Origin: Opitutaceae bacterium
GTDB lineage: Bacteria; Verrucomicrobiota; Verrucomicrobiia; Opitutales; Opitutaceae
Assembly (NCBI GenBank): GCA_015075305.1
Contig: JABTUS010000001.1
Location: 744,001-808,000, forward strand
Direction of reading: 5' to 3'
Length of the DNA stretch: 64,000 bases
Shown in pieces: positions 16,214 to 56,464 of this stretch; positions within the stretch are counted from its first letter, which is position 1; each line of letters starts with the position of its first letter. The notes beneath the pieces are model-generated. The model was not told the origin of the DNA. It saw only the letters and a list, made by a program, of their open reading frames with translations, and searched no databases. The position numbers and the translations under genes were made by a program.

Positions 16214-17569
16214 CTACGCCGGGGACATTTTCCGCTCGGTCAGCGGCAGCATGACGCCGCGCCGGAAAAGGTTCACCTGCCCGGTGCTGGACGAAACCAC
16301 GATTGAGATGCATTCGGTAGCCACGCTGATCGCGGCGGCGGCCGCGTGGCGGCTGCCGAGGCCGCTCGGAAGCGCATGATCGGAATCGGTTGCCTGAAGC
16401 AGACTGCCCGCGGAAAGCACGACGCCATCCCCGCGGATGATGAAGGCGCCATCAAGGAGGGAATACTCCTTGATCGTTTCATCCATGAACGGATTCAGGA
16501 TGTTCCGGTCCTCCTCCTTGTATCCGAAAAATGGATTCAAGACGAGCGGCTTGATCAGCTTCTCGACCTTCGCGGTGTCGCCAACGACGAACAGGCATCC
16601 CACCGGCCGCCCCTCCCTTCCCTCAACCGCAAGCTCCGTGGCAACCGCGATGACCCTCTCGAGAACCTCGGGTCGGACATCCGGCGGGAGAAGCTCCGCA
16701 TGGCCCGTCAGCAGCGTCTGGAACTCACGCTCGACATCCACCACCACCAGCGTGTCGAACTGGTTGCTGCCCGTGATGCCGGCGATGCAGCACACACGAT
16801 CGTTGAAGGATATGATGCCGTGGGTCAGCCCGACAAGCATCGCACTGCGCAACTGCGCCAGGCGCGCCTTGGAAAAGGACCGGACCTGGATGGTGTCAGC
16901 AAACGCCGAATGGTCCTCCCCAGCCTCAATCGGGTTTCGCGTGACAAGGATCGTTTTCAGCTTCGGCTGTATCATGCCAGCCTCGATTCCACCCACAAAG
17001 GTGTCCCCAAAAACCATCAGCGCCCCGCAGCCGGCGCCCCTGGCCACACGCTCCGCCTCCCGAAGCATCAGGCGGTTCACGCGGTTTTGCTGCGCCTGAA
17101 TCGGCCGCCCCGCAATGCCTCCCAGCCCGGCGATCAGCTTTGTGTAGAGATCGTCAAGATCCGGTGCGATGAGCAGACTGTCAATGAACTCGGGCTCCTT
17201 GAAAAGGCGGGCGAGCGACGCCAGGACCGGCAGGTAGCTGCGCGCCCTTTCCCCGGCAATCAACATCAGGATGAAATGTATGCGCTCATCGCTTGCTCCT
17301 CCATCATGCCGGATTCCCGCCTTGCTGCGCCCAACAGCGAGGACGTATGGACGCGACATCTTGACCCGCGCGTGCGGCAGGGAGACGCCATTGCCCAGAT
17401 AGGTCGTCATTGTGCCCTCCCGCTGCAAGAGGCTGCGAAGCAGGACCTCGGGTTTCAGGTCGGGAAATTTCGCCACCGAGACATCCAAGAGCTCCTGAAG
17501 CGCCCCCTTCAAATCCGAGCTCTTCAGCTCAACGAGACGGCTTCTGGCTATGATCTTGTCGAGACGCAT
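16214..17569 (-). CDS. PTS EIIA-type / diadenylate cyclase (DAC) fusion protein
   Basis: A 451-residue protein with three parts. Residues ~1-150 form a type-2 EIIA (PtsN/EIIA-Ntr-like) domain with the phospho-accepting histidine context GVSLPHARV (His66). Residues ~165-300 resemble the pyruvate-kinase-C-like alpha/beta domain that precedes DAC domains in some proteins (GALMVFGDTFVGG; GITGSNQFDTLVVVD). Residues ~330-450 form a DisA_N/DAC domain with both catalytic motifs: DGA (373-375) and GLGSRHAAAAA (Arg407-His408). DAC domains condense two ATP to cyclic di-AMP. The arrangement suggests c-di-AMP synthesis controlled by PTS phosphorylation, which is inference. No membrane segment is seen. It follows nuoA on the same strand by 116 bp. 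Confidence 0.88.
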   Translation of the reverse strand: MRLDKIIARSRLVELKSSDLKGALQELLDVSVAKFPDLKPEVLLRSLLQREGTMTTYLGNGVSLPHARVKMSRPYVLAVGRSKAGIRHDGGASDERIHFILMLIAGERARSYLPVLASLARLFKEPEFIDSLLIAPDLDDLYTKLIAGLGGIAGRPIQAQQNRVNRLMLREAERVARGAGCGALMVFGDTFVGGIEAGMIQPKLKTILVTRNPIEAGEDHSAFADTIQVRSFSKARLAQLRSAMLVGLTHGIISFNDRVCCIAGITGSNQFDTLVVVDVEREFQTLLTGHAELLPPDVRPEVLERVIAVATELAVEGREGRPVGCLFVVGDTAKVEKLIKPLVLNPFFGYKEEDRNILNPFMDETIKEYSLLDGAFIIRGDGVVLSAGSLLQATDSDHALPSGLGSRHAAAAAISVATECISIVVSSSTGQVNLFRRGVMLPLTERKMSPA

Positions 17570-17685: not shown

Positions 17686-18078
17686 TCACCGTTCCCATTC
17701 CAATGCCCCTTTCTTCACCTCGTAGTAAAGTCCCAGGACTAGAACGAACAGGAAGAAGGAGATTGGGCCGAGAATCGAGATATGACTGGCTAGGAACTCC
17801 CGATAGATGAACGTCCAGGGTATCAGGAAAACCACCTCAATATCGAAGATGATGAAAAGCATCGCGGTCACATAGAATTTCACCGCGAAACGCGCATGCG
17901 TGATGCCTTCCGGCTTCACTCCGCATTCGTAGGCGGAGTCCTTGATCGCATTCTTCGCGGAACGCTGGCCAAGGAGCTGACTGATACCGACAATGGCGCC
18001 GGCCAGGCCGGCAGCAAGCAGCACCTGCACAAGAATCGGCAGGTAGTCTGCGGACGTATCGACGACAGCGGATGTCAT
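17686..18078 (-). CDS. nuoA: NADH-quinone oxidoreductase subunit A
   Basis: 130 residues with three transmembrane helices (about residues 12-34, 68-90 and 98-120). The conserved signature KDSAYECGVKPEG and RFAVKFYVTAMLFIIFDIEVVFLIPW is diagnostic of NuoA/ND3, including the cysteine loop that moves during the active/deactive transition and the acidic FDIE in TM2. It is a membrane-arm subunit of respiratory complex I. Unusually it stands alone: no nuoB or other nuo gene follows, the next gene being the EIIA-DAC fusion, so the rest of the complex must be encoded elsewhere. Confidence 0.96.
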   Translation of the reverse strand: MTSAVVDTSADYLPILVQVLLAAGLAGAIVGISQLLGQRSAKNAIKDSAYECGVKPEGITHARFAVKFYVTAMLFIIFDIEVVFLIPWTFIYREFLASHISILGPISFFLFVLVLGLYYEVKKGALEWER

Positions 18079-54184: not shown

Positions 54185-56464
54185 ATGGACCATTTCACGC
54201 TCGTTCACGACTTTGTCATCCTGCTGCTGGCGGCGGGGCTCGCCGGCATGCTTTGCAAGCGCATCGGCCTGTCCGCGATCGTGGGTTACCTGCTCGCGGG
54301 CATCGCCATCGGACCGTACCTGCCGTTCTCTCTGATCGAGGACACGGAGCATATCGCGCAGCTCTCACAGGTGGGACTGGTGTTCCTGATGTTCTCGATC
54401 GGACTGGAACTCAGCCTTTCCAAGCTGCGGCGCATGGGGCTGCCGATCATCATGGCCACCTTCATCGGCGCGGCCTTCATGCTGGTCTTTACGCTGCTGC
54501 TGGGGCGCGTGCTGGAGTGGTCGCCGCTTCAAAGCCTGTTTGTCGCGGCGATGCTCATGGTTTCCAGCTCAGCCGTGATCGCAAAGATCATGAGCGAGCT
54601 GAAGCTCAACCACGACCGTGCCGCGCAAATGGCACTGGCCATCACGATCGTGGAGGACGTCGTCGCCGTCGTCATGCTGACCGTGCTCGCCACCCAGGGG
54701 GCGCACAAGTCGGTTGGACTCGCTTCCGTGCTCACCGGGTTGACTGCCTTTGTCGTCCTCTTCGTCTGCCTTGGCCTGCTCCTGCTGCCCCGTCTGCTGC
54801 GCTGGCTCGACAAGAAAGCCGACACGGAGCTCCAGACACTCGTGGTGGCCGGCGTGCTTTTTCTGCTGTCGCTCGCGGCAATCAAGGCCGGCTACTCGAT
54901 CGCCCTGGGCGCGTTCCTCTTCGGGGCATTGATGGCGGAGATGCCGCAGAAACAGTCCATCGAGGACTCGTTCGGCAGCCTCCGCAACCTCTTCGGCAGC
55001 GTTTTCTTCGTGTCGATCGGCATGATGATTGATGTCCGCCTCTTGAAGGACATCTGGCTGCCCGTTCTGACCCTCAGCCTCTTTTCGCTGCTCGTGCGCC
55101 CGATCGCCTGCGGAATCGCCCTCATGCTCGTCGGCGTTCCGCCGAAGCAGGCGCGGCGCGGCGGACTGCTGCTGACCCCTCTTGGCGAATTCACCTTCAT
55201 CATCGCGCAGGCGGGCATCGCGGCGGCCATTCTGCCGGTCTCCTTCTATCCGCTGTCCGTCGGTCTTTCCGTTCTCACGGTGCTGGCCACCCCCATCCTC
55301 AACCGATTCGCGGATCCCATTCTTCATTTCCTCAACGCCATCGAACCCGCGCCTGTCGCGCGGTTCATCGCAGCCTATCAGAGCTGGCTTCATCAACTGG
55401 CCAATCGCGACACCACACCGCTCGCATGGAAACTGATCCGCAGCCGTCTCGTGCAGGTCGCGGTCGAGGTTCTTTTCGTCGCGGGTGTGCTGATTTTTTC
55501 ACTGCCTCTCCTGCACCGCCTTGAGGAAACGATGCTTGCCTCGATGATGGGCATCAAGCTCCTCCGCATCGCGTATTGGATTGGGATCGGACTGCTTGTC
55601 CTCATCCCGCTGTTTGCCGCCTGGCGCAACATCGGTGCCCTCGCGGCGATTGTCGCCGAGGCCTGGCACATGCCCACACTGACTCCCCGGTTCATCCGGA
55701 CGAGCCTGCAGACAGCCGCCGCCGTGGCGCTGGGATCCTTCCTCTACGGGCTCTTCCCGGTGCAGCTGAGCCCGCTCGGCTGGCTCTTCCTCGGCCTCGC
55801 GGCCATCACGGTCGTGACCATTTTCTCGCGCAAGCTCATCTACTGGCACAGCACCTGGCAGCACTCCATGAACAAGGTGCTTGCGGGGCCGCCGGGCCCG
55901 GCCGGCCAGGAGGGCGGAACAAATCGCGAGGAACTCGCCCACGGACTCGAGACCTGGGACCTTCAACTTCACGAGTGCACGGTCCCCCCCGGCGCCGCCT
56001 ACGCGGGATGCTCGCTTTCCGAACTTCAGATTCCGTCGCGATTCGGCTGCTTCGTCGTCGAGATCGAACGCAACAACTTCATCATCGCCCATCCCTCTCC
56101 GAACATCGCCTGCTATCCGGGCGACAAGCTTCTCCTCCTCGGAAGTCCTTTACAGATCGAGAAAGCCTCCGCGTTTCTGGAGGGACAGGAGGCCGATGCC
56201 GCGCATCCCGCGGATTTCGACCGCGCCGTGCTCGATTCGTTCACCGTCCCCGAAAATGGTCCGACCGGTGTGCCGCTCGGCAAGCTCCAGATTGCGCGCA
56301 AGACGGGTGTTCGTGTCCTTGGCATTGGACGCAACGGCTCCCAGATCCTGGTTCCGCAAGCCTCCGAAGTCCTTCAACCCGGCGATCGCCTCCTCGGACT
56401 GGGATCCCTCGACCAGCTCCGCGACTTTCGCGCCTGGCTGGAAATCTCTCCAACCGGCAGATAG
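54185..56464 (+). CDS. CPA2-family cation:proton antiporter with RCK_C domains
   Basis: 759 residues. An N-terminal Na+/H+-exchanger domain with ~12 helices (residues 1-380; RIGLSAIVGYLLAGIAIGPY, QVGLVFLMFSIGLELSLSKLRR, ITIVEDVVAVVMLTVLA) is of the YbaL/KefB/RosB type. A further membrane segment block (~415-560) precedes a cytosolic part with two TrkA-C/RCK_C domains, near residues 590-660 (LHECTVPPGAAYAGCSLSEL) and 685-755 (GVPLGKLQIARKTGVRVLGI). It lacks an obvious TrkA-N nucleotide-binding domain. The role would be K+ or Na+ efflux in exchange for protons. Confidence 0.9.
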   Translation: MDHFTLVHDFVILLLAAGLAGMLCKRIGLSAIVGYLLAGIAIGPYLPFSLIEDTEHIAQLSQVGLVFLMFSIGLELSLSKLRRMGLPIIMATFIGAAFMLVFTLLLGRVLEWSPLQSLFVAAMLMVSSSAVIAKIMSELKLNHDRAAQMALAITIVEDVVAVVMLTVLATQGAHKSVGLASVLTGLTAFVVLFVCLGLLLLPRLLRWLDKKADTELQTLVVAGVLFLLSLAAIKAGYSIALGAFLFGALMAEMPQKQSIEDSFGSLRNLFGSVFFVSIGMMIDVRLLKDIWLPVLTLSLFSLLVRPIACGIALMLVGVPPKQARRGGLLLTPLGEFTFIIAQAGIAAAILPVSFYPLSVGLSVLTVLATPILNRFADPILHFLNAIEPAPVARFIAAYQSWLHQLANRDTTPLAWKLIRSRLVQVAVEVLFVAGVLIFSLPLLHRLEETMLASMMGIKLLRIAYWIGIGLLVLIPLFAAWRNIGALAAIVAEAWHMPTLTPRFIRTSLQTAAAVALGSFLYGLFPVQLSPLGWLFLGLAAITVVTIFSRKLIYWHSTWQHSMNKVLAGPPGPAGQEGGTNREELAHGLETWDLQLHECTVPPGAAYAGCSLSELQIPSRFGCFVVEIERNNFIIAHPSPNIACYPGDKLLLLGSPLQIEKASAFLEGQEADAAHPADFDRAVLDSFTVPENGPTGVPLGKLQIARKTGVRVLGIGRNGSQILVPQASEVLQPGDRLLGLGSLDQLRDFRAWLEISPTGR

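Follow-up and report, generated by a model that had tools for sequence, protein, structure and literature searches.

Little is known about the signals that govern c-di-AMP levels. A stretch of 64,000 nucleotides from an Opitutaceae bacterium (GCA_015075305.1, contig JABTUS010000001.1; the window in what follows) carries a gene in which an EIIA domain of the phosphotransferase system (PTS) is joined to a diadenylate cyclase (DAC). This raises the question whether the PTS controls c-di-AMP synthesis in this organism, and what such control would serve. An initial reading of the DNA (the original prediction) had proposed the fusion and suggested that phosphotransfer to its His66 would link c-di-AMP production to carbon or nitrogen status. 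The gene and its parts are as follows.

16214..17569 (-): EIIA-DacZ fusion, a predicted diadenylate cyclase of 451 aa, probably of class DacD (Pfam, AlphaFold2 model, structure comparison)
17141..17527 (-): PTS_EIIA_2 domain, residues 15-143 (Pfam 5.9e-18; fold match to 1a6j)
17372..17374 (-): codon of His66, the predicted phosphoacceptor (aligned with GVAIPH of PtsN; His in 75/80 order members)
16715..17086 (-): DacZ_P domain, residues 162-285, with a pyruvate-kinase-C-like fold (Pfam 2e-23; 5ws9, Z 13.9)
16253..16630 (-): DAC domain, residues 314-439 (Pfam 2.7e-22; folds of DisA 9y4s and CdaA 8c4n)
16445..16453 (-): DGA motif, residues 373-375 (D373 and G374 in 90/90 aligned rows, A375 in 86/90)
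16346..16351 (-): Arg407-His408 (invariant in 90/90 aligned rows)

The open reading frame begins with ATG, and all three domains lie well over their Pfam cut-offs: PTS_EIIA_2 scores 65.7 bits (cut-off 27), DacZ_P 82.8 bits (27.4) and DAC 79 bits (27), with no further Pfam family found in the protein. The N-terminal part is a type 2 PTS EIIA domain both by this match and by its active-site His66, embedded in GVSLPHARV, and the C-terminal part is a DAC domain by its match and by the DGA and Arg-His motifs. Full-length homologues with 36-95% identity across the order rule out chance or a frame artefact as the origin of the ORF. A plasmid-borne gene was likewise rejected, since none of the plasmid records in the collection matches the gene over 80% of its length; the GC content of the region (0.60) falls inside the window's own range.

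An AlphaFold2 model was built from 40 aligned sequences (mean pLDDT 83.1, pTM 0.55). Its single domains are fairly reliable, and their placement relative to each other is uncertain. In structure comparisons, residues 1-148 resemble EIIA-Ntr (1a6j; Z 20.9, rmsd 1.8, 146 aligned) and residues 158-283 the C domain of pyruvate kinase (5ws9; Z 13.9, rmsd 3.3, 121 aligned, 13% identity), pyruvate kinase entries being two among the 50 structure matches listed. The DAC part matches both DisA (9y4s; Z 16.1, rmsd 2.3, 129 aligned) and CdaA (8c4n; Z 15.3, rmsd 2.9, 131 aligned). With these fold and sequence matches, the domain fusion, the catalytic residues and the pyruvate-kinase-C-like (PK-C-like) middle domain named by the original prediction are all borne out.

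To which kind of DAC does the protein belong? Its best NCBIfam match is archaeal DacZ (NF041371, 5.1e-34), at 117.8 bits against a cut-off of 430. It shares the catalytic domain of CdaA, DisA, CdaS and CdaM, but falls far under the NCBIfam cut-offs of these proteins (CdaA, TIGR00159, 37.8 bits against 188.8; DisA, NF010009, 20.6 bits against 201), and has RHA where CdaA has RHR. The likeness to archaeal DacZ/DacY (CdaZ) extends to the DAC type and to the PK-C-like domain that precedes the DAC domain, whereas the EIIA domain would not fit into the NCBIfam DacZ model of 270 positions. Judged by its sequence, the fusion protein belongs to the DacZ type of DAC, in a bacterial form that has an EIIA domain in addition.

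DacZ and DacY/CdaZ are described as having a PK_C-like N-terminal fold in common (PMC6741144). The same paper, crediting the DAC classes to Corrigan and Gruendling 2013 (nrmicro3069), names as members of class DacD Lacunisphaera limnophila, Puniceicoccaceae, Coraliomargarita, Opitutae and a Verrucomicrobia bacterium. Lacunisphaera and Coraliomargarita are Opitutia genera. The DACs of the window's clade are thus already catalogued as DacD in this one paper, which, in the portion available, gives names without domains or function. From the shared clade we infer that DacD corresponds to the EIIA plus DacZ architecture. In the literature searched, which covered few subscription journals, we found neither a description or test of an EIIA-DAC fusion nor a measurement of phosphotransfer or c-di-AMP for one of its members.

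The fusion is no lone oddity, as it recurs throughout the order and in other phyla. It is the sole DAC match in the window's own genome (G000; 4.87 Mb assembly). The original prediction had suggested looking for it in related genomes; 64 of the 70 genomes sampled from the window's order have a DAC, and a full-length fusion is present in all 64 (here and for the whole phylum, full-length matches were scored for up to four candidates in each genome). No second DAC accompanies it in 61 of them, while G268, G344 and G217 have two. The DacZ type, the standing as sole DAC in nearly all sampled order members and the class name DacD go beyond the original prediction. No DAC match was found in the other six order genomes (G054, G191, G336, G383, G403 and G405). 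Throughout the phylum, 369 of 383 genomes carry a DAC, and the EIIA fusion occurs in six of the 305 DAC-bearing genomes outside the order (G318, G278, G059, G347, G089 and G205), in G059 as the only DAC. The other DACs of the phylum are mostly stronger Pfam matches (about 1e-31 to 1e-44), except for weaker ones in G201 and G323, and the ORFs listed are mostly near 290 aa; they appear to be mostly of another DAC type. A search of 57 near relatives found no fusion in the same-genus genome G009 (95% complete). This genome has a PgpH-type hydrolase despite the missing fusion, which may reflect a gap or another DAC.

Searching named genomes with an outgroup copy returned at least 523 relatives among at least 584 matching stretches. 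The best 80 of these relatives (the named set) come from Fibrobacterota, Spirochaetota, Planctomycetota, Kiritimatiellota and Verrucomicrobiota, with single records from Hydrogenedentes, Wallbacteria and 'Deltaproteobacteria'. The EIIA part is present in 75 of the 80 loci and absent from four Thermodesulfobacteriota and one Nitrospinae; Pfam found DacZ_P and DAC in both of the EIIA-less loci scanned. In a DacZ_P-DAC tree of 100 rows, made by a quick method and rooted at the midpoint, the window protein sits among Opitutaceae, and the presence (92 rows) or absence (8 rows) of EIIA needs one change, which reads equally as gain or loss. L095 (G160) had been considered as EIIA-bearing; its read-through ORF has no EIIA match and was coded EIIA-less.

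How well is the putative phosphoacceptor kept? Our alignment holds 90 rows: 80 order members with EIIA, six more with EIIA from further families of the phylum, and four EIIA-less rows (L095, L100, L101 and L104; the genome of L104, G047, has an EIIA match on another contig). His66 is found in 75 of the 80 order members and in all six rows from other families. Arg50 (78/80) and Glu51 (79/80) are similarly retained. Mean column identity within the order is 0.66 for EIIA, 0.68 for DacZ_P and 0.84 for DAC; few residues of the EIIA domain are kept as well as His66. The EIIA part is like PtsN/EIIA-Ntr in fold and in the sequence context of the active-site His. PtsN, however, is a free protein, and the EIIA domain fused to the cyclase has Tyr112 at what we take to be the position of the second active-site His of several EIIA domains. 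This residue is Tyr in 80/80 order members; in the named set it is Tyr in 28/75 and His in 27/75, and an Opitutaceae copy (L209) has Thr.

The window's genome also encodes the upstream partners of a PTS relay, with one match each to EI (589 aa, three PEP-utiliser domains) and HPr. They carry TSHAVIVAR and MGIHARPA, respectively, presumably their active-site motifs. EI was found in 53 and HPr in 55 of the 57 genomes searched, own included. Using the window protein as query, we identified two more EIIA proteins in G000, one free and PtsN-like and one with a helix-turn-helix; by eye, one of the two likewise has Tyr at the second-His position. The helix-turn-helix protein, fused to EIIA_2 (L129:1659-2426 (-), contig C7), is a possible PTS-controlled DNA-binding protein.

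What would c-di-AMP do in this cell? A PgpH-type 7TM-HD protein (PF07698, 833 aa ORF) is encoded in G000; counting this genome, 17 of the 19 searched have it. Synthase and hydrolase tend to be absent together: the hydrolase occurs in 5/14 DAC-less versus 26/29 DAC-bearing genomes (Fisher p 5e-4, ignoring kinship; the DAC-bearing genomes were hand-picked as kin, and G009 and G053 were left out). Within family f19 it occurs in 0/5 DAC-less versus 4/4 DAC-bearing genomes, a pattern that probably reflects one loss. The five f19 genomes G054, G336, G383, G403 and G405 (97-99% complete) match neither a DAC nor a PgpH-type hydrolase, an apparent loss of c-di-AMP signalling.

A candidate target of c-di-AMP lies in the window, 37 kb from the fusion gene.

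54185..56464 (+): Na_H_Exchanger protein, KefC-like, with a pair of TrkA_C domains at its C-terminus; candidate target of c-di-AMP (Pfam, homology)

The membrane part of this putative antiporter (Na_H_Exchanger 1.5e-54) has KefC as its best solved relative, and its first TrkA_C domain weakly matches 4xtt (6e-4), which we take to be the c-di-AMP-bound domain of KtrA. Both TrkA_C matches of G000 fall in this ORF, the sole TrkA_C ORF of the genome. TrkA_C was found in 19/19 genomes searched (own included) and in 13/14 control genomes, so that its presence alone carries little weight. On domain homology, the antiporter is a candidate c-di-AMP receptor and would be the output of the system. A c-di-AMP riboswitch was rejected as the readout in G000, which has no match; two of the 19 genomes are positive, G012 (same family, L227:752-922) directly ahead of a Kup K+ transporter and G010 ahead of a Band_7 protein. 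c-di-AMP is described as a regulator of K+ in many bacteria (PMC7900238).

We propose that this Opitutaceae bacterium makes c-di-AMP with the fusion protein alone and that phosphotransfer from PEP via EI and HPr would reach His66 of the protein's N-terminal EIIA domain. The phosphorylation state of EIIA would alter the pairing and working of the DAC domains, and the PK-C-like middle domain would probably supply a second, metabolite input. The PgpH-type hydrolase would remove c-di-AMP, which in turn would adjust K+ balance, most likely via the KefC-like antiporter and its tandem TrkA_C domains. We give this explanation as a whole a probability of roughly 0.55. For its parts, DAC activity is very probable from the sequence, D373, G374, R407 and H408 being invariant in 90/90 rows, and control of the DAC by the EIIA domain is likely. 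Control through phosphorylation of His66 in this organism is favoured with less assurance, as is K+ as the main output. The genes for EI, HPr, hydrolase and antiporter plausibly complete a circuit from the PTS through c-di-AMP to K+.

The strongest competing explanation holds that the PK-C-like domain is the main sensor, of a sugar phosphate, AMP or a flavin, as has been proposed for archaeal DacZ/DacY, and that EIIA only tunes the output. DacZ_P is present in the scanned members with and without EIIA, its fold matches an allosteric domain (5ws9), and a regulatory role has been suggested for such a domain (PMC6741144). Genes of central metabolism also adjoin the fusion in some lineages, as the neighbourhoods show. 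In the window the neighbour is the following.

17686..18078 (-): nuoA, directly upstream of the fusion gene (Pfam Oxidored_q4 6.6e-30)

The fusion gene begins 116 bp downstream of nuoA on the same strand, confirming a juxtaposition noted in the original prediction. This arrangement recurs in 71 of the 80 order loci (L104, too short, was excluded), and other named loci with a nuoA neighbour are all Verrucomicrobiota by title. Scans returned no promoter-like sites (shuffles 0.7) and six terminator-like sites (shuffles 2.6), none of the latter between nuoA and the fusion gene on the minus strand; this outcome carries no weight either way. Outside the order, where 27 proteins were scanned as hand-picked examples, fusion genes of Fibrobacterota adjoin an acyltransferase and phosphoglucose isomerase (one locus each scanned; similar ORFs in 8 and 6 loci), some of Spirochaetota fumarase (L146, L166) or 5'-nucleotidase (L154, L167), and that of L195 (Puniceicoccaceae) 6-phosphogluconate dehydrogenase. 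Two Pontiellaceae genomes have an amino-acid-permease-type protein with a C-terminal EIIA_2 near the fusion gene (L224:12881-14716 and L225:8712-10565; by their lengths, L187 and L224 are one contig and L168 and L225 the other), and in one of them an EI gene is also adjacent. No such EIIA-permease or EI neighbour was present among the genes scanned beside the G347 copy (five) and the G089 copy (one). The remaining scanned neighbours outside the order have no PTS or K+ relation, or no family.

The phosphoglucose isomerase, fumarase and 6-phosphogluconate dehydrogenase genes may, however, be accidental neighbours, and the DacZ_P domain diverges strongly between lineages, with 14-19% identity between the window and six copies from f38, f44 and f84. 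We regard the domain (residues 162-285) as a possible second sensor, and consider it unlikely to be the main one.

Somewhat less probable still is that EIIA serves as a docking or structural module independent of phosphorylation, binding a partner (HPr, a transporter or another complex) or helping the DAC to assemble, with His66 incidental. This idea draws on the members that keep the fusion without the histidine. In the order these are L107, with Tyr, and four g60 genomes of family f19, with Ser, Ser, Ser and Cys. In the named set His is present in 66 of the 75 EIIA-bearing loci and not in nine, which have Gln (L132, L134, L135, L136, L137 and L152), Lys (L175), Tyr (L195) or a gap (L161). 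On the tree, the 92 rows imply a minimum of six changes at the His, or five when the gap row is dropped, affecting Fibrobacterota, L107 with L195, f19 and L161. L132, L134, L136 and L175, with Gln or Lys, still have a clear Pfam match to EIIA (47-78 bits), and dN/dS of the EIIA part is low in the His-less f19 pair L089/L090 (dN 0.015, dS 0.314), as it is between the window and L003 of the window's genus (dN 0.028, dS 0.96). In the remaining EIIA pairs with finite dS, dN is far under dS; two pairs are saturated. The six loci with Gln, from Fibrobacterota and their kin, and L175 with Lys are natural candidates for phospho-blind proteins.

Against a docking module stand the retention of His66, among the best-kept residues in a domain with a mean column identity of 0.66, and of EI and HPr in most genomes. 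In f19, moreover, the EIIA part falls under the Pfam cut-off in L091 (23.9 bits) and is undetected in L092, as expected if loss of His relaxes the rest of the domain. The match between relay and acceptor is imperfect in both directions: all four f19 g60 genomes with a replaced His66 retain EI and HPr, and in G042 (0.9 Mb, 93% complete) neither EI nor HPr was found, yet His66 is kept. In this small sample the two are thus not strictly linked, which argues against phosphorylation as a universal mechanism. The phosphotransfer of the original prediction therefore stands in part, favoured by His66 in most order members and by EI and HPr in this genome and most of the 57, and weakened by the lineages that keep the fusion with a changed His and by G042. 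For the proposed circuit as a whole, Tyr112 and the usual setting of the gene in this order, beside nuoA and not beside PTS genes, count against it; the EIIA-permease and EI neighbours in Pontiellaceae, the joint absence of synthase and hydrolase, and the riboswitch ahead of Kup in G012 count for it. That EIIA is a vestige without regulatory role is very improbable: several lineages have replaced the His and f19 has a degenerate domain, but dN/dS is low, and the domain, mostly with its His, is kept across the order and in several phyla.

The phosphorelay to His66 thus remains, at slightly better than even odds, the best-supported idea. Its direction is a guess. Unphosphorylated EIIA would brake c-di-AMP synthesis and so restrain K+ export, and phosphorylation would lift the brake. 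We choose this direction by analogy with Escherichia coli, in which unphosphorylated PtsN is reported to inhibit the K+/H+ antiporter YcgO (PMC11808508). Control of K+ by PTS-Ntr is described as established in proteobacteria (PMC13104625, PMC11808508), and neither 'c-di-AMP' nor 'diadenylate' occurs in the main text of PMC13104625. For the whole order and the scattered lineages of other phyla, it is a tentative idea, held at a little under even odds, that EIIA phosphorylation gates the only DAC and makes PTS-Ntr and c-di-AMP a single K+ switch.

The value of the finding lies in this order-wide context and in a possible connection between two systems that regulate K+. Through its built-in PTS acceptor, such a cyclase would give c-di-AMP synthesis a defined input, and this would account for K+ control by carbon or nitrogen status in bacteria for which it is the sole DAC. 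The natural members without His, namely those with Gln in Fibrobacterota, Tyr in L107 and L195, and Ser or Cys in f19, provide ready controls. In this way, the fusion may tie the energy state of the cell to potassium control.
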